Source: Rhizobium sp. (GTDB lineage: Bacteria; Pseudomonadota; Alphaproteobacteria; Rhizobiales; Rhizobiaceae). From it: DNA of 41,589 bases. The translations under genes and the position numbers were made by a program. The stretch spans positions 1 through 41,589 of the forward strand of contig JARXAQ010000316.1 of NCBI GenBank assembly GCA_029865825.1. Direction: 5' to 3'. Below the pieces are notes generated by a model that was not told the origin of the DNA, ran no database searches, and worked only from the letters and a program-made list of their open reading frames with translations. Position 1 is the first letter of the stretch, and every line of letters starts with the position of its first letter. This document shows, piece by piece, positions 26,342 to 36,199 of the stretch.

Positions 26342-27169
26342 CTAGTTTGATTTAGCCCTGATGAACTGCCGAGGGGAAGCCATCTTGAGCGCGGAATGAG
26401 GATGGATTTCATTGTAGTCCTCGATCGATCCGTCGATGAGCCGGAGCGCCGTTTCGGCGTCCGGTAGTGCTGCGATGCGGATATAGTCCCCCTTCAGGGT
26501 TTTGACGAAGGCTTCCGACATGCCGTTCGACTGCGGACTGGCCACCGGCGTGAAGCAAGGCGTCAGATTGAGCGCCTGGGCAAAGAGCCTCGTGTCCCTC
26601 GCGGTGTAAGTCGAGCCATTGTCCGAGAGATGCTCGATTGCGTGCGGGGCTCTGGTCGCCGCGAAGCGCTTCTCGACTGCCTCCAGCATCATGTCGCGCA
26701 CGTCAGAGCCGGAGATGCCCGCATTGGCGACCGCCGTCCAGGCGATGATCTCCCGGTCGAAAGCATCGATGATGAAGGCGAGACGAATGACCTCGCCGTT
26801 CCAGCAGGTGAACTCCAGCCCATCCGAGCACCAGCGCAAGTTTGAGCGCATCACCATGACCTTGCCGTCATGGATACGGCCCTTGCGAACTGCCGTATGC
26901 TTCTCCAGCAGCATGGCGTGGTTGCCCATGATGCGATGAACCCGTTTGGCGTTGACGATAGGCTTATCGGCGGCTCGCCTCTCGCGATTGAGGAGCGCGG
27001 CGATCCGCCGATAGCCATAGGTTGGCCTTTGATCCACCAGCCTGCGGATGATGGGCAGAAGCTCTGCATCCTCGGCCTTGTGATAGGACCCGCGCGGCTT
27101 TGATCTGCCTTTCAGCCGCTCGACGAGGTTGGAACGGGATACGCCCAGCGTGTCTGCGACGGACTTCAT
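26342..27169 (-). CDS. IS3-family transposase OrfB (DDE integrase core)
   Basis: TYGYRRIAALLNRERRA..., rve core LRWCSDGLEFTCWNGEVIRLAFIIDAFDREIIAW...LSDNGSTYTARDTRLFAQ...SPQSNGMSEAFVKTLKGDY. Confidence 0.95.
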   Translation of the reverse strand: MKSVADTLGVSRSNLVERLKGRSKPRGSYHKAEDAELLPIIRRLVDQRPTYGYRRIAALLNRERRAADKPIVNAKRVHRIMGNHAMLLEKHTAVRKGRIHDGKVMVMRSNLRWCSDGLEFTCWNGEVIRLAFIIDAFDREIIAWTAVANAGISGSDVRDMMLEAVEKRFAATRAPHAIEHLSDNGSTYTARDTRLFAQALNLTPCFTPVASPQSNGMSEAFVKTLKGDYIRIAALPDAETALRLIDGSIEDYNEIHPHSALKMASPRQFIRAKSN

Positions 27170-27555
27170 CGGGAACCGTCCTTCGGCAACAAGATGGGCC
27201 GCGATATCCGTTTTTTTGAGTCTGCTTTGGACAAGGCTTCGCGGAGGATTTCGACCTCCATCGTCTTGCGGCCGAGCATGCGCTCCAGCTCGCGAACGCG
27301 GTCCTCCAGCTTTTTAACTTCCGAATTGCCGACCACCGGCTCGTCAGAATCCACGGCTGCAGCACCTCCCTCACTCAAGAGCCTGCGCCACCGGTAAAGC
27401 AAATTGGGCGCAACGCCATGGCGGCGAGCAGCCGAAGACACCGTCTCGCCAGGTTCAAAACTCTGCTCAATGATTGTCAGCTTCTGCTCGGTTGTCCACC
27501 GTCTGCGGCGGACATCACCCGTCAGCAATTCAACGTGTCGATACTCGTTAGACAT
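27166..27555 (-). CDS. IS3-family transposase OrfA (HTH)
   Basis: RRRWTTEQKLTIIEQSFEPGETVSSAARRHGVAPNLLYRWRRLL plus leucine-zipper-like C-terminus; overlaps orfB start by 4 nt. Confidence 0.94.
   Translation of the reverse strand: MSNEYRHVELLTGDVRRRRWTTEQKLTIIEQSFEPGETVSSAARRHGVAPNLLYRWRRLLSEGGAAAVDSDEPVVGNSEVKKLEDRVRELERMLGRKTMEVEILREALSKADSKKRISRPILLPKDGSR
27211..27217 (-). promoter_or_regulatory. A7 slippery site for programmed -1 frameshift (OrfAB fusion)
   Basis: Minus strand TCAAAAAAACGG; shifting -1 gives KKTDIAAHLVAEGRFPMKSVADTLG, in frame with OrfB. Confidence 0.8.
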
Positions 27556-27623: not shown

Positions 27624-27799
27624 GTTCAAATACATCATCGTAGGCATCGAGGAGGCGCAGGAATTCGCCACGCAGTGGCTATGGACCTACAACAATGAAC
27701 GGCCCAATATGGGGATCGGCGGCATAACACCCGCACAGGAACTGAGAATGGCCGCGTGAATTCTACTGCCGAGCCCCGTTAAAAACGGGGGGATTACCC
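27624..27799 (+). mobile_element. 3' fragment of a different IS3-family element (OrfB C-terminus and right end)
   Basis: FKYIIVGIEEAQEFATQWLWTYNNERPNMGIGGITPAQELRMAA*, followed by CCCCGTTAAAAACGGGGGG. Confidence 0.8.
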
Positions 27800-27943: not shown

Positions 27944-27961
27944 TAATTGACTAATTAATTA
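27944..27961. promoter_or_regulatory. TAATTG-N6-TAATTA motif copy 1 (upstream of APC permease)
   Basis: TAATTGACTAATTAATTA; same architecture as two other sites in the cluster. Confidence 0.7.
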
Positions 27962-28043
27962 GACTGTGTGACGATTTTGCTAAGGCTGTTAGGGCGCGAA
28001 AAAAGGCTGGCCCTGCCATTTGCACAGCCAAAATGAGGGAACA

Positions 28044-29675
28044 ATGACAACGGACATCGACAGCCATGCCCCCGGGGGGCATGGGCTAAATCTTCATCGT
28101 ACGATTACGTGGAAACACGCCTTCTGGCTGGCAGCAGGCGCACCGGCTCTAGTCTTGTTTACACTTGGCCCTGTGTCGTCGACAGTTGGCCCGCTCTCGC
28201 CAGTGGTCTGGATCGTCTCGGCGTGCTGCGCTCTGCTTCAGGCCTTCGCTTACGCCGAGATTTCGGGGATGTTTCCCAACAAGTCGGGGGGCGCTTCAGT
28301 ATTCGGTGCGGTCGCCTGGGTGCGCTACGGCAAAATTCTCGGGCCGATCTCGGTTTGGGTCAACTGGCTGGCTTGGTCGCCCGTTATTGCCATAGGTGTC
28401 AGCTTGGCGGGTTATTACCTCATCGACATACTGTTTGCCGCGGGAGCCCCCGCGCGCCAATGGGAGATCACTCTTGTCAACCTCGGGTTTTTGCAGGAGG
28501 GTCTGCGCTTGCGCATCGACGCCGTCTATCTCGCGGCCTGGCTGATGGTGCTGATCGTGTTCGGCATACAGCATCGCGGCATTTTGCGAGCAGCTCGCGC
28601 TCAGATCGCGCTTGCTGTCGTGGCGCTCATCCCGCTGTTTGCTATTGCCCTCAGTCCGTTGTTAACCGATTCCTTCGACTGGTCAAACCTGTTCCCTCTC
28701 TTGCCGCTATTGCCCTCGTCTGATGGTCAAGTGCACTACGCGCAATGGGACGGTCTGGGGGTCTCCATCTTGCTCGCAGCGTTTTTTGGTGCTTCCTACG
28801 CGACCTACCCATTCGAGACGGCAGTCTGTTACACGCGAGAATTTCGCGACCCCGGCAAGGATACCTATCGGGCGATCATGTCGGCGGGAATATTGGCACT
28901 CTTGGTCTTCTCGATCGTGCCGCTCGCGTTTCAGGGTGTGTTGGGCGTGGAGGCACTGCTGGCCCCCGGCATCATTAGCGGCACCGAGATCGGATCGGCG
29001 ATGGCCACGATGGTCGGTGGTGGCGTCATTACCAAGACCATCATTGTCGGCTTTCTGATCATGACGCTTCTATTCAGCGTGTCGACAGCAATGGCCGGGT
29101 CATCCCGCACGCTTTATCAAGGCGGTGTCGACGGTTGGCTGCCGCGCTATCTCGGACGCGTAAATAACAAAGGCGCGCCTGTGGCGGCTATGATGACCGA
29201 TCTCGTGTTCAACATGCTGCTCTTGTTGCTGAACGACATCATTTTCCTGCTCGTTGTCTCCAACGTTACTTACTTGTTTTTCGTTTTTATGAACCTGCAG
29301 TCGGGCTGGTTGCACCGTATCGACCGGCCGACGACACCCCGCCCATATCGCGCGCCTGATTGGCTTATTGCAGTCGGTGCGATGCTTGGTTTCGTCAACA
29401 TGTTCCTCCTGGGGGCGGGGGGAGCATTCTGGGCGCCCAGTGCGCTGGCAGTGGGCGTCTTCGCCTCGCTGATGATCTTGCCGGTGTTCTGGTGGCGGCA
29501 CTATGTCCAGGATGGAGGCGTGTTTCCAAATCAGATGGAAGACGACATGCACCTTCGGGCATCCGGCATGGATCAGCCGCAAACACGCGCCGGAATGTTG
29601 CCTTACGCGGCATTGCTGGGAGGAGGTATGATGGCAGTGGCGGGGTATTGGTTCGTCGCTTCGCATGTATCTTAA
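28044..29675 (+). CDS. APC family amino acid/amine permease
   Basis: Multiple TM segments; APC-type N-terminus LHRTITWKHAFWLAAGAPALVLFTLGPVSSTVGPLSPVVWIVSACCALLQAFAYAEISGMFPNKSGGASVFGA. Confidence 0.92.
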   Translation: MTTDIDSHAPGGHGLNLHRTITWKHAFWLAAGAPALVLFTLGPVSSTVGPLSPVVWIVSACCALLQAFAYAEISGMFPNKSGGASVFGAVAWVRYGKILGPISVWVNWLAWSPVIAIGVSLAGYYLIDILFAAGAPARQWEITLVNLGFLQEGLRLRIDAVYLAAWLMVLIVFGIQHRGILRAARAQIALAVVALIPLFAIALSPLLTDSFDWSNLFPLLPLLPSSDGQVHYAQWDGLGVSILLAAFFGASYATYPFETAVCYTREFRDPGKDTYRAIMSAGILALLVFSIVPLAFQGVLGVEALLAPGIISGTEIGSAMATMVGGGVITKTIIVGFLIMTLLFSVSTAMAGSSRTLYQGGVDGWLPRYLGRVNNKGAPVAAMMTDLVFNMLLLLLNDIIFLLVVSNVTYLFFVFMNLQSGWLHRIDRPTTPRPYRAPDWLIAVGAMLGFVNMFLLGAGGAFWAPSALAVGVFASLMILPVFWWRHYVQDGGVFPNQMEDDMHLRASGMDQPQTRAGMLPYAALLGGGMMAVAGYWFVASHVS

Positions 29676-29701
29676 CGATCGACAGACCCTCAGCCAATAA
29701 C

Positions 29702-29719
29702 TAATTGCTCAGTTAATTA
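29702..29719. promoter_or_regulatory. TAATTG-N6-TAATTA motif copy 2 (upstream of FMN reductase)
   Basis: TAATTGCTCAGTTAATTA, 16 bp before the reductase start codon. Confidence 0.7.
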
Positions 29720-29735
29720 ACAAAGGAACAACCAC

Positions 29736-30368
29736 ATGAGAACTTTTGTGCTCTGCGGAAGCCCCCGCCGAAACGGAAATTCGGCGATATTGGCCCAAGA
29801 GGTGGTCAGGGGTCTTGAGGAAGAAGGTCATGACGTTCAGATGGAATATGCATCGGACGTGCTCGGCGGATTTCTCAAGGATTGCCGTACCTGCCGCGAT
29901 GCCCATGGCGAGTGCTCGATCGAGGATAATTTCGGCCAGGCGTTCCTCGACAAGATGCTGCCTGCTACGGGCTTCATTATTGCCACGCCAGTCTATTGGT
30001 ATGGCATGTCGGGGCTTGCCAAGACCTTCTTCGACCGCATGTTTTGCTACGTCGCGGCATCGCATCCGAAGTCCGAAAGCGTGGTGTCCGGCCTGCTCGG
30101 AAAGCGCATCGGGCTAGTACTGTCCTCTGAGGAGACCTTCCCCAGTGTTGCTGCGGGGATCGTCCATCAGATGCAGGAATATGCACGCTACACTCGGTCG
30201 ACTTTTGTTGGCGTTGTGCACGGCTATGGCAATGCCCGCGGCGACGTCCATCGCGACCCCGGCGCGCCTACTGCCGATGCATTAGAATTCGGACGCAACT
30301 TCTACCAGCGCCACGCCACCGACTACCAAATTGACACGCCACGCTCTGGCCGCGTCTGGCCGATTTGA
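29736..30368 (+). CDS. Flavodoxin-like NAD(P)H-dependent FMN reductase / oxidoreductase
   Basis: MRTFVLCGSPRRNGNSAILAQEVVRGLEEEGHDVQ; TPVYWYGMSGLAKTFFDRM. Confidence 0.92.
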   Translation: MRTFVLCGSPRRNGNSAILAQEVVRGLEEEGHDVQMEYASDVLGGFLKDCRTCRDAHGECSIEDNFGQAFLDKMLPATGFIIATPVYWYGMSGLAKTFFDRMFCYVAASHPKSESVVSGLLGKRIGLVLSSEETFPSVAAGIVHQMQEYARYTRSTFVGVVHGYGNARGDVHRDPGAPTADALEFGRNFYQRHATDYQIDTPRSGRVWPI

Positions 30369-30414
30369 CCGTAATTCACCCGCTGTTCAAAGACCAAACA
30401 ACCGAGGAACTGTT

Positions 30415-31791
30415 ATGTCTGCCAATGATTGGATTGAAAAGAAGAAAGAACTCGTCGCTGCGGGCGTCGAATACTGCTTTGCTAGTTACGTGGACGTGCA
30501 TGGCATCTCCAAGGCCAAGTGCGTTCCCATCAGCCATCTGGAATCCATGGGGAAAGGATCGGAATTGTTCACGGTCGGGGCGCTCGATGGCATGGGGCTT
30601 GTCGGGCCGCAGTTCGACGAGTGTGCCGCTGTCCCTGACATTGAGACAGCAACGATCCTGCCGTGGGATAAGCGCTACGTCTGGTTCGCATCCGACCTGC
30701 ACTATCACGGTGAACCCTACGCCAATTGCAGCCGTGTCATCCTGAAGAAGGCGACGCAGTCCGCGTATGAGCGCGGGCTTCGCTTCAACGTGGGCATCGA
30801 GCCGGAATTCTATGTCTACAGGAAAGGCGACAACCGCCTCGAAACATTCCAGGAAGAAGGTTTCCTTGGGGGAACGCCGGCATACGACCTGTACCAGACC
30901 TCCCTGGCCGAGCCGCTGCTCGACAAGATCGCACGCTATATTGATGAGATGGGCTGGGGCTTGTATTCTTTTGATCAGGAAGGCGGCCACGGGCAGTTCG
31001 AATTTGACTTCGACTATGCAGACGCGCTGACCACTGCCGACCGCCAGACCTTCTTTAGGTTCATGCTAAAGAATGTCGCCCGCTCTCTCGGCGCTGTCGC
31101 GACATTCATGCCCAAGCCATTCAGCAACGACTTCCGCTCGGGTGCGCACCACAACATGTCGCTCGAATACATACGCACCGGAGAAAACATTTTCGACGTC
31201 AAGAAGCGATCGCAAGGCGAGCTGGCCAAGGAAAGGGGCATTCGGGCGACCGACGAGACGCTACATTTCATCGGCGGCCTGCTCGACCATGCTGATGCGC
31301 TGTGCGCCATCACCTGCCCGACATTTAACTCATACAAGGGTTTGATCGCTCGGGGTGATATGCCCGACATGTCATGGGCACCGGTACTGCAGGCCTATGG
31401 CAGTAACAACCGTTCGGCAATGCTACGCCTGCCGATGAACCGGCCCTGCATAGAAAACAGAACGCCAGACATGAGTGCAAACTTCTACCTGTCCACCGCG
31501 TTCAGCCTACATGCCGGGTTGGACGGTCTCGATCGCAGGCTGGATCCTGGTGAACCAGTCAACGACAACCTTTATCTGCAGCGTGCCGCTAACGAAGGCA
31601 AGCCCGGTACCAGCCGCCTACCGCGAACACTTTTGGAGGCCGTCGAGGCCCTCGAAAAGAGCGATCTTGCCAAGCGTACGATGGGCACCGAGTTCGTCAG
31701 CCTGTTCAGCCAGCAAAAGAAGCAGGAATGGGAGACCGCCTTTTATCACGTGAGCCCGTACGAGCGGGAACGCCAGCTAACCTTCGTATGA
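30415..31791 (+). CDS. glnT: Type III glutamine synthetase-like ligase (GlnT family)
   Basis: VAAGVEYCFASYVDVHGISKAKCVPISHL; FNVGIEPEFYVYR; EGGHGQFEFDFDYADALTTADRQTFFRFMLKNVARSLGAVATFMPKPF; NNRSAMLRLP. Confidence 0.85.
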   Translation: MSANDWIEKKKELVAAGVEYCFASYVDVHGISKAKCVPISHLESMGKGSELFTVGALDGMGLVGPQFDECAAVPDIETATILPWDKRYVWFASDLHYHGEPYANCSRVILKKATQSAYERGLRFNVGIEPEFYVYRKGDNRLETFQEEGFLGGTPAYDLYQTSLAEPLLDKIARYIDEMGWGLYSFDQEGGHGQFEFDFDYADALTTADRQTFFRFMLKNVARSLGAVATFMPKPFSNDFRSGAHHNMSLEYIRTGENIFDVKKRSQGELAKERGIRATDETLHFIGGLLDHADALCAITCPTFNSYKGLIARGDMPDMSWAPVLQAYGSNNRSAMLRLPMNRPCIENRTPDMSANFYLSTAFSLHAGLDGLDRRLDPGEPVNDNLYLQRAANEGKPGTSRLPRTLLEAVEALEKSDLAKRTMGTEFVSLFSQQKKQEWETAFYHVSPYERERQLTFV

Positions 31792-31793
31792 CC

Positions 31794-31826
31794 GGCTGAG
31801 CGCTGCCCCGCCGGAGCGCTCAAGCC
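31794..31826 (+). terminator. Intercistronic hairpin after the glutamine synthetase-like gene (no U-tract)
   Basis: GGCT-GAGCGCT-gccccgccgg-AGCGCTC-a-AGCC dyad immediately after the stop codon. Confidence 0.4.
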
Positions 31827-31937
31827 AGCATTGCTGTCGCCGGGCGTCAACGCCTGGCGCCGGCAGAACTTTGTCAAACAACTTGCTCTTGGCGTCTGTC
31901 TGGCCCCCGGGAGCAATTGGAAAATCTGGGGAAGACG

Positions 31938-33191
31938 ATGCACGCCATGGAAAGATTTCGGCGCGAAGCCAATGCAACTGCACTGCAGAAGATGTTTGAA
32001 GCCGACCCGGTGGTCGAGGATGTACGTACCGCGCTGGACGCCGTTCCGGGGTTTGCGAAAAACCTAATCCTAACATCGGGGCCGACCATGGAGTGGGTTG
32101 GGTATGATGGCGGCCAGCGCGCTGCGATAATTGGCGCGGCCTTGTTTGAGGGGTTAGCCGACAATGCAGAACAAGCTAACGATAGGATCGCGGCCGGCGA
32201 CATTCGCGTCCTCGGCGCGCAGGAGTTAGGTTGCGTCGGCTCGGTTGCCGGCGTCTACACCGCCTCGATGCCAGTGCTTGTCGTGCGCAACCGCCGCCAT
32301 GGCAATGTAGCCTTCTGCAATTTCTACGAAGGCACCAATCCGCGCCGGCTGAACTACGGCATCTATGACGAGGCTGTGCGCGAGCAACTGCTCTATGTGA
32401 ACAACGTCGTGGCGCCCGTCATCGGCGAGGCGATCCGGCGGAGCGGTGGAATTGCGATGAAGCCGTTGATGAAGCGTGCGCTTAACATGGGCGACGAGTT
32501 GCACAGCCGCAACAATGCTGCTGGCCTGTTGCTGATGCGCGAACTGCTTCCGCACTTCCTAGCCGGCCAAGGAACTGACCCAGCGCCAACCGAAAAGGCG
32601 ATCATGGCCTTGACCGAAGACCAGTATTTTTTCCTGCGGTTTTCTATGGCTGCAGCTAAGGTCACGGCTGACGCCGCCCATGGCGTCAGATATTCGAGCC
32701 TGGTAACCTCGATGAGCTTCAACTGCCGAGAGTTCGCCATCCGTGTCAGTGGCCTCGGTTCGCACTGGTACAAGGGTCCGCACCCGCAGGTCGCGGCTAA
32801 GCTTTTTGATGGCTTTGACCCGTCCGACATCACCTGGATCGGGGGAGAAAGCATTATAACCGAGACCATCGGCCTCGGAGGTTTCGCGCAGGCAGGTGCC
32901 CCCACGCTACAGTCCTATCAAGGCGGCTCTGTCCAGTCGCTGATCGACAAAAACCTTGAGATGTACCAGATCACGCTTGGTGAGAATCCGGACTAGCTCA
33001 TCGCCAGCCTAGGCTATCGAGGAACACCAACCGGCATCGATATCTTCAAGGTGTTCGAGACTGGAGTGACTCCGGTGATGGATATCGGCATTGCTGGAAA
33101 AGGTGGTGGCCAGATAGGCGCGGGCACTGTCAGGGCGGAAAAGGCTTGCTTCGACAGCGCGGTCGATGCGTACATCAGCCAGTATTCTTGA
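31938..33191 (+). pseudogene. DUF1116 / AllG (YlbE)-like protein, interrupted by an in-frame TAG at 32994-32996
   Basis: ORF to 32996 has DUF1116 features (VGYDGGQRAAIIGAALFEGLA, GVRYSSLVTSMSFNCREFAIRVSG, TLQSYQGGS); after TAG the same frame reads LIASLGYRGTPTGIDIFKVFETGVTPVMDIGIAGKGGGQIGAGTVRAEKACFDSAVDAYISQYS*. Confidence 0.8.
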
Positions 33192-33214
33192 CATCTTGTG
33201 GGGCTGTCACCCAT

Positions 33215-33227
33215 CCCCCCCCCCCCC
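33215..33227 (+). repeat. Poly-C homopolymer (13 C)
   Basis: Read directly: CCAT-CCCCCCCCCCCCC-GCATC. Confidence 0.9.
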
Positions 33228-33639
33228 GCATCTTCAAAGCAATCTTGCCCGAAAAGAATGCGCTAAAGGGACACTCGATGCATTAACTAGCTAAATTCAT
33301 TATCTGCCAGTGGCAGCGAGCTTCCCGCCAAGTGGTCCGGACCTCCAGCCGGGCCACTTTCATATACACTGAGCGTGCCGCGAATGCATTATTCGTTTCC
33401 GTCGAGGAGCAGTTAGGGTCGGTCGCGTTTTGAATCGTCGGCAATGATGCACTGGATGATTTCACGACGCACAGTCATTCGACTAAGAATCGCCGAATTC
33501 GTCCGCCCCACGTTCTGATAGCAGCCAGGAGAAGCTTTGGACACCGCGATCCGTGAAGCGGTTGTGCAATCCTTGGTCTCATTGTGGACGCGCACGATTT
33601 CACCGTGATCCATATTGTCCCGGTTGGTGGAGCTCACTC

Positions 33640-34062
33640 TTGCCGTATTCACTTCATGCGTAACGCGCTGGCCATGCCGGGAAGAGCGGACGGCGCGTCG
33701 TCTCCGCCTTCATCGCCACAGTCTTCGCCCCGGACACCCCGGAGGTGGCAAGCACCGAATGGCGCAATGTCGCCGACCAGGTCAGGCTGAAGGCGCCGAA
33801 ACTCGCCACGTTGATGGAGAGCGCAGAACAGGATGTGCTTGCCTACATGACCTTTCCCATGCAGCACTGGGCAAAGCTTCATTCGACAAATCCGATCGAG
33901 CGTTTCAACGGCGAGATCAAGCGACGCACCGAGGTCGTCTGCATCCTTCTCATTGACGATGCTATCGTTAGGCTCTTCGGCACCTTGCTCCTGGAGCAAA
34001 ATGATGAACGGGCCGTTCAACGCTCCAGACATTGACCCTTAAGACCATCGCTGCAATGAGCT
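33640..34062 (+). pseudogene. IS256-family (Mutator) transposase C-terminal fragment with frameshifts
   Basis: CRIHFMRNALA... / ASTEWRNVADQVRLKAPKLATLMESAEQDVLAYMTFPMQHWAKLHSTNPIERFNGEIKRRTEVV / LTLKTIAAMS. Confidence 0.88.
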
Positions 34063-34259
34063 GATGATCCGCGCAACAGCCTGCCAGCAGCAAGCTGATC
34101 CGTTCCGGCTTCGTCCGGAAAGCACGGCGATCGCCGAAGCAACATCGCGCCATGGGACATCATCCGCGATCGGCCCTAACAACCCCAAAACAACTAAATT
34201 TCCAGAGAATTGAAGCTGGAAAGCCATTTCACTTGGTCGGTTGACCCTTGAAAAAGACG

Positions 34260-34871
34260 CTAGCGCAAGTCAGTCAATTTGGAGAAGACTGTAAGGAGCC
34301 GACCGAGAGCCTCAACGATCGAATAATCCTTTTCAAGAATCGAACGCGTGATGATGCCGTCGAGATGGGTGGACACGAAATAGGCCAGGTCGTCCCGCGA
34401 TATTGCGAAAGCGGCACCTTTTGGATCAGCAGGTATCGCAGAAGCAACTAGCGAATGTTCGATACTGTAAAACCTCTTGATCTGCGCGTCGATCAGCGGG
34501 TTCTTGACTTCACTACGGGAGTAATCGAGCATTAGCTTCAACAGATTGATGATGTCGTCTGACATCATCCGATGGGTGTCTAACCAGCTGTTGATGATAT
34601 CGGCAGAGCTTGTATGACCCGCAATGTTAGTTGCGTACTTGCTGCTGATGCGGTCAATCAGGTTAACGAGGCACTCATGAAATATGCCGTCCTTATCTTT
34701 AAAGTAATAATATATCATGGCCGAATTGAATCCAGCTCTTTCTCCGATCTCTTTTACCGTAACCGAAGAAAATCCTTTTTCTGCGAAAAGATATAGGGCG
34801 GAATCGATAAGAAGTTCTTTTGTATCATTTGCTTTATCCTCAGGTACTGCATATTTCTTTCTTCTCATCAA
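34260..34871 (-). CDS. TetR/AcrR family transcriptional regulator
   Basis: TKELLIDSALYLFAEKGFSSVTVKEIGERAGFNSAMIYYYFKDKDGIFHECL HTH. Confidence 0.95.
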   Translation of the reverse strand: MMRRKKYAVPEDKANDTKELLIDSALYLFAEKGFSSVTVKEIGERAGFNSAMIYYYFKDKDGIFHECLVNLIDRISSKYATNIAGHTSSADIINSWLDTHRMMSDDIINLLKLMLDYSRSEVKNPLIDAQIKRFYSIEHSLVASAIPADPKGAAFAISRDDLAYFVSTHLDGIITRSILEKDYSIVEALGRLLTVFSKLTDLR

Positions 34872-34944
34872 CGCGCCTTCTTTTGTATGGTGTCGATCAC
34901 CACGTCGGCAGAATGTAGGTTGTATAACTTCCCCGACTCGGTAT

Positions 34945-34962
34945 TAATTGATCACATAATTA
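34945..34962. promoter_or_regulatory. TAATTG-N6-TAATTA motif copy 3 (upstream of tetR)
   Basis: TAATTGATCACATAATTA inside larger dyad TATTAATT-N8-AATTAATA. Confidence 0.75.
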
Positions 34963-35639: not shown

Positions 35640-35936
35640 TCATTCGCCGAATAGTAATACCCCATAGTCTGTTGCGCCGTGCAGGATGTGTATAATGACC
35701 ACTTTGGCAGACTCAATGCGGTAGAAGATCAGGTAGTTTCCGTGAACACGTCGACGGATTCCATGATGTTCATAGCGAGGGACGAGGGCGAAGCTATTGG
35801 GGTTACTGATAAGATCTTCACATCGGCTCCGCAGCTCTCGAATGAATGAAAGAGCGCGCCGTGGATTGTGCTCGGCAATATAATCCGCGATCTGCTCAAG
35901 ATCGCCTTCGGCCTCCTTGGTGAATTCAAGGATCAT
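35640..35936 (-). CDS. parE: Type II toxin-antitoxin system RelE/ParE family toxin
   Basis: LEFTKEAEGDLEQIADYIAEHNPRRALSFIRELRSRCEDLISNPNSFALVPRYEHHGIRRRVHGNYLIFYRI. Confidence 0.93.
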   Translation of the reverse strand: MILEFTKEAEGDLEQIADYIAEHNPRRALSFIRELRSRCEDLISNPNSFALVPRYEHHGIRRRVHGNYLIFYRIESAKVVIIHILHGATDYGVLLFGE

Positions 35937-36199
35937 GCGGAATTTTCGGCTTTGTCAGCCAGTGCACGGTACTTAGCGTCAAGACGGTTGAACACATCGC
36001 TGGCCGACTTGGTTCGACCGGCGTCCGCATCAGAGATACCGCGCATGATTGAAGCATCCAGAGCGGCCAGTCGCGTTTCCCGGTCCTGAACCAGTCGCAC
36101 GCCTTCGCGCAGGACTTCGCTTTTCGAGCCGTAGCGACCTGTATCCACGAGCTGCTGAATATAGCTTTCGAGCTGCTTTCCCAAATCGGCGCTGATCAT
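35933..36199 (-). CDS. parD: Type II toxin-antitoxin system ParD family antitoxin
   Basis: LGKQLESYIQQLVDTGRYGSKSEVLREGVRLVQDRE; overlaps toxin start by 4 nt. Confidence 0.93.
   Translation of the reverse strand: MISADLGKQLESYIQQLVDTGRYGSKSEVLREGVRLVQDRETRLAALDASIMRGISDADAGRTKSASDVFNRLDAKYRALADKAENSA

Follow-up and report, generated by a model that had tools for sequence, protein, structure and literature searches.

A candidate TetR regulon joining an APC-type permease, a glutamine-synthetase-like ligase and an AllG-like protein in Rhizobium sp.

The window analysed here, the 41,589 nucleotides of contig JARXAQ010000316.1 from the Rhizobium sp. assembly GCA_029865825.1, carries a cluster of genes for an APC-type permease, a flavodoxin-fold NADPH-FMN reductase, a glutamine-synthetase-like (GS-like) ligase, an AllG-like protein (DUF1116) and a TetR-family regulator, together with three predicted operators of the form TAATTG-N6-TAATTA (Table 1). 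The families to which a preliminary description of this DNA had assigned the genes were recovered by Pfam searches, and its proposal that one TetR regulon extends over them is well supported by sequence comparison, given that the motif is unique to the cluster in this genome, is conserved 5' of homologous genes in others and is associated with a homologue of the same regulator.

Table 1. Genes, remnants and predicted operators of the cluster (position 1 is the first letter of the window)
Feature	Position	Strand	Basis or remark
Predicted operator 1, TAATTGACTAATTAATTA	27944..27961	.	83 bp 5' of permease ATG
APC-type permease	28044..29675	+	Pfam amino-acid permease; NCBIfam trimethylamine N-oxide (TMAO) permease, 711 against a cut-off of 690 bits
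Predicted operator 2, TAATTGCTCAGTTAATTA	29702..29719	.	17 bp 5' of reductase ATG
Flavodoxin-fold NAD(P)H-dependent FMN reductase	29736..30368	+	PF03358/PF02525
GS-like ligase, GSIII-related	30415..31791	+	Pfam GS catalytic domain; below GSIII cut-off
AllG-like protein, early TAG end at 32994-32996	31938..32996	+	PF06545
AllG frame continuation past the TAG, 65 codons including final stop	32997..33191	+	Alignment to the C-terminus of relatives
Transposase remnant (Mutator/IS256) in the AllG-tetR interval	33641..34170	+	
TetR-family regulator	34260..34871	-	PF00440 (TetR_N)
Predicted operator 3, TAATTGATCACATAATTA	34945..34962	.	74 bp 5' of tetR start

The motif is matched exactly at all three positions where it had been described, and the sites do lie upstream of the permease, the reductase and tetR, the last of these placements being suggestive of autoregulation. 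When the genome assembly was scanned (368 contigs that total 4,128,317 bases, with a completeness of about 77%), these three exact copies were the only ones obtained; an abundance of the motif across the genome, which would have spoken against a regulon, was thus not observed, and the reversed motif, used as a control, had no match in the same bases. The expected number of exact copies in the window is zero (none of 100 dinucleotide shuffles presented a match), which, along with the genome count, rules out a chance motif. The architecture originally given for the sites held only in part, as they are exact but their centre is constrained rather than a free N6, and an operator of two-fold symmetry underlies TAATTG-N6-TAATTA, which captures it in a single asymmetric reading; this operator is a palindrome similar to the betI box.

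In other Alphaproteobacteria, the symmetrised consensus palindrome TTAATTRATCGATYAATTAA was derived over 29 sites in about 19 loci, and nearly all of these sites are located 3-160 bp 5' of a homologue of the permease, the reductase, the GS-like ligase, the AllG-like gene or tetR, or of a Rieske oxygenase gene, the farthest being 194 bp from an unassigned open reading frame. For example, in G140, a genome from another family that was reached through its reductase, homologues of AllG, TetR, GS and the reductase are found together, with two exact copies of the motif, one 5' of AllG and the other 5' of GS. This comparison of neighbourhoods bears out the expectation that homologues of the cluster genes co-occur in other genomes.

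A scan of GTDB genomes for relatives of AllG returned 80 loci, and a symmetric weight matrix, trained on nine sites and then run on loci outside the training, placed sites 5' of AllG in L118, L093, L081, L084, L095 and L105, 5' of GS and the permease in L196 and L203, 5' of tetR and the permease in L202, and 5' of GS in L070. The regulon permease of L203 (G312:C6:209000-227500) is also interrupted, by one TGA, and the operators there are intact. A looser pattern, TAATYRN6YRATTA, scanned over 12 whole genomes, pointed to GS-like genes in G061 and G233, the latter beside a TetR homologue, and had a site near a different TetR in three Rhizobiaceae genomes, while a strict 20-bp pattern run over 368 genomes returned true sites, BetI sites and AT-rich chance matches in small AT-rich genomes. 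Near the different TetR, a similar palindrome is found at G136:C1:5043487, G069:C11:16700 and G337:C52:11254, as TAATCAATCGATTGATTA or with one base changed, and in G136 this TetR gene is followed by an HlyD-like open reading frame.

The presence of the operator also follows that of the regulator. Among the loci outside the training, it was found in 8 of the 11 with a TetR homologue versus 2 of the 81 without one (Fisher p = 7.5e-8, a value that overstates independence, as many of the loci are related), and in 15/18 versus 2/81 when all loci are counted. These homologues have approximately 26-40% identity to the TetR of the window, with a conserved helix-turn-helix.

The association of AllG with GS in the absence of AllF, AllH and AllK is equally well supported by these loci. 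Of 84 AllG loci, 69 have a GS homologue, at a distance of no more than 400 bp in 32 of them, and several of the 15 loci that have none end at contig edges. Genes of the gamma-glutamyl-GABA-hydrolase or glutaminase families occur in about 28 related loci; Rhodococcus opacus presents the compact order AllG-GS-hydrolase-permease, and in L196 a glutaminase follows the permease. The other members of the loci are variable, and include a MetX-like hydrolase, an agmatinase-like ureohydrolase, a phosphoesterase and Rieske oxygenases. The reductase was discarded as a marker of the cluster, as it is too widespread and most of its homologues have no other cluster genes nearby. An actinobacterial version (L160, L161 and L123-L151; Rhodococcus, Mycolicibacterium, Nocardioides and Gordonia) contains AllG and two GS-like genes, to which annotated Rhodococcus plasmids add several short-chain dehydrogenases (SDR), an alpha/beta hydrolase, a gamma-glutamyl-GABA hydrolase and a glutaminase.

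The ligase itself had been taken for a GlnT-type enzyme, an assignment that did not survive, given that it scores 433 bits against TIGR03105 (type III GS), under the cut-off of 469.6 which some of its relatives exceed, and that a quick tree groups it with other GS proteins of this module, outside GlnT and the solved gamma-glutamylmethylamide synthetases (GMAS) 9qur and 7cql. This position also speaks against its identification as a GMAS, and its nearest solved relatives include a glutamate-methylamine ligase.

In the case of AllG, a tree built from a set without misframed distant sequences separates 39 GS-associated proteins, including that of the window, from seven associated with AllFGHK, which include AllG and YahG of E. 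coli; the separation is supported at 100/100 by a bootstrap that had not fully settled. The preliminary description had noted that the usual partners AllF and AllH are not seen here, and, in fact, no AllF, AllH or AllK was found in the window or in about 90 GS-type AllG loci; homologues of AllF and carbamate kinase do turn up at loci of the AllFGHK type. AllH was found in 6 of 13 genomes searched, all six of which have an AllG outside the GS-type group, and not in G000, G140, G144, G326, G061 or G098, where only GS-type AllG was found, nor in the approximately 77% of the window's genome that is assembled. The lack of AllF and AllH is, as far as these loci indicate, a general trait of the whole clade. 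Some residues are conserved in both types of AllG, which may thus have kept the same chemistry. The predicted model of a GS-type AllG (predicted local distance difference test, pLDDT, 90.8) has 3clq as its sole structural match (template modelling score, TM, 0.93), and assigning a function from the fold was abandoned, since 3clq is itself of unknown function.

Taken as a whole, these data are best explained by a repressor-controlled catabolism of a small amine through gamma-glutamylation, an explanation to which we give a probability of roughly 0.6. As to repression and induction, we infer that the TetR repressor would bind the betI-box-type palindromes before the permease gene, a reductase-GS-AllG operon and its own gene, and would let go upon binding either the compound taken up or something made from it. 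As to the class of the substrate and its gamma-glutamylation, the permease would import a small amine-type compound, which the GS-like ligase would couple to glutamate as a gamma-glutamyl amide; it would also be acted on by the reductase and by the AllG-like protein, and the product would be freed by a gamma-glutamyl hydrolase, which adjoins the ligase in many relatives and would here be encoded elsewhere, if present.

A number of observations weigh against this explanation. The AllG gene is truncated in this genome, and therefore the pathway may be partly broken; a gamma-glutamyl hydrolase was not found in the window; and the full gene set of the window was not found together in the genome sample, the permease, reductase, GS and AllG being combined differently in each genome. 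Furthermore, the divergent TetR-positive loci L086, L104 and L144 are without the motif, L070 has the motif and no nearby TetR, and the sequence alone cannot name the regulator, because BetI uses the same half-site architecture.

The truncation raises the possibility, doubtful but to be taken seriously, and compatible with the explanation by amine gamma-glutamylation, that the cluster is a decaying relic flanked by insertion sequences, with its genes present and its pathway no longer working here. An in-frame TAG breaks the AllG gene, whose frame then runs on through codons that align with the C-terminus kept by relatives, including the conserved GGQIGAG stretch, and since this conserved end is cut off, the gene is probably a pseudogene, unless the draft assembly is wrong at the TAG. 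Transposase remnants are, in addition, found on both sides: to the left, an IS3-type pair (26342-27555, with HTH_Tnp_1 and rve domains) followed by a short fragment (about 27640-27760) that resembles a transposase end, and beyond AllG, the IS256/Mutator remnant, with up to approximately 85% identity to copies in Rhizobium-group plasmids. On the other hand, the reading frames for the permease, reductase, GS and TetR remain uninterrupted, the operators still match exactly, and the stop itself could be an assembly error. A ParDE-type toxin-antitoxin pair (PF05016, PF03693) is located to the right of the cluster, at 35640-36199.

A second alternative, which we hold to be unlikely, is a methylated-amine route (TMAO or methylamine), in which a TMAO permease would feed a GMAS-like GS. 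The assignment of the permease to the APC family stands, with the correction that it scores as a relative of the TMAO permease, passing the equivalog cut-off of NCBIfam NF053774 narrowly. The permeases of L196 and L202 are likewise above this cut-off, the closest solved relative of the GS is the glutamate-methylamine ligase, and some related loci have Rieske oxygenases partly similar to glycine-betaine monooxygenase. Even so, three paralogues of the permease can be found in a single genome, which makes it probable that the family extends beyond TMAO, and the route is made less likely by the position of the GS outside both solved GMAS enzymes and by the absence of the dimethylamine-oxygenase family PF11927 from G031, G312, G304, G140 and G233, five genomes with this type of regulon; a PF11927 member is present in the genome of the window, away from the contig of the cluster. 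Genes for TMAO demethylase and the N-methylglutamate pathway were not seen in the cluster either.

It is considerably less probable that the sites are served by BetI, or by another TetR encoded elsewhere, rather than by the local TetR. The operator does match the type of the betI box, ATTGACG*CGTCAAT (PMC12442346), and the strict pattern also found junctions of betI and choline genes in other genomes, but one of the sites directly fronts the local tetR, the sites accompany homologues of this TetR from locus to locus, and regulators of the window type score far below the BetI cut-off (47.6 bits for that of the window against TIGR03384, with a cut-off of 201.3).

Finally, an oxamate or oxalurate (allantoin) pathway with AllG acting as an oxamate carbamoyltransferase, for which the name carried by PF06545 would speak, is scarcely credible, being contradicted by the requirement of the E. 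coli enzyme for all three of its subunits, AllF, AllG and AllH (PMC11326118), by the failure to find the partners in the window, the GS-type loci or, for AllH, the genome assembly, and by the separate clade of the window AllG.

The function of AllG was assigned only in 2024, as one of the three subunits of oxamate carbamoyltransferase, and a second function in the family is suggested by the existence of a large clade which is without the other two subunits and adjoins GS-like ligases, and which spans Proteobacteria, Actinomycetota and Chloroflexota. Very tentatively, and with the odds against it, a second widespread partnership can be proposed in which a GS-type ligase replaces AllF and AllH, with a nitrogen of low reactivity receiving or giving up the gamma-glutamyl group that the pair would transfer, in an as yet undescribed pathway; such an enzyme pair is conceivable because the reactions of oxamate carbamoyltransferase and of GS each involve an acyl-phosphate together with a nucleophilic nitrogen. 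The combination had been suggested to be perhaps undescribed, and a literature search, thin on subscription journals, found no paper that pairs DUF1116 with a glutamine synthetase. The conserved operator may also provide a cheap handle, in that genomes with the site and the TetR could be used to find the inducing compound, and hence the substrate.

Gamma-glutamylation pathways are available for putrescine (PuuA/PuuD), for ethanolamine and polyamines in Streptomyces (GlnA4 and GlnA3, respectively) and for methylamine (GMAS), and the cluster resembles them in its GS-fold ligase and permease, and its relatives in the hydrolase or glutaminase that many of them have nearby, although its GS forms a clade of its own and, to our knowledge, none of the known amine pathways has been described with an AllG-like protein. 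With the AllFGHK oxamate carbamoyltransferase the cluster shares an AllG of the same family and fold, with common conserved residues, whereas AllF, AllH and carbamate kinase are lacking and its AllG falls in a separate clade. The Methylocella silvestris TMAO permease (NF053774) is approached by the permease of the cluster, which is above the equivalog cut-off, and the differences are the narrowness of this pass, the paralogues in related genomes and the lack of a visible TMAO demethylase. In relation to the BetI regulation of the choline-betaine system, the operator shares the architecture ATTGA-N4-TCAAT, but the TetR of the cluster has another recognition helix, other target genes and a score far below that of BetI, so that the predicted operator is a known type of site which has a different regulator and different targets.

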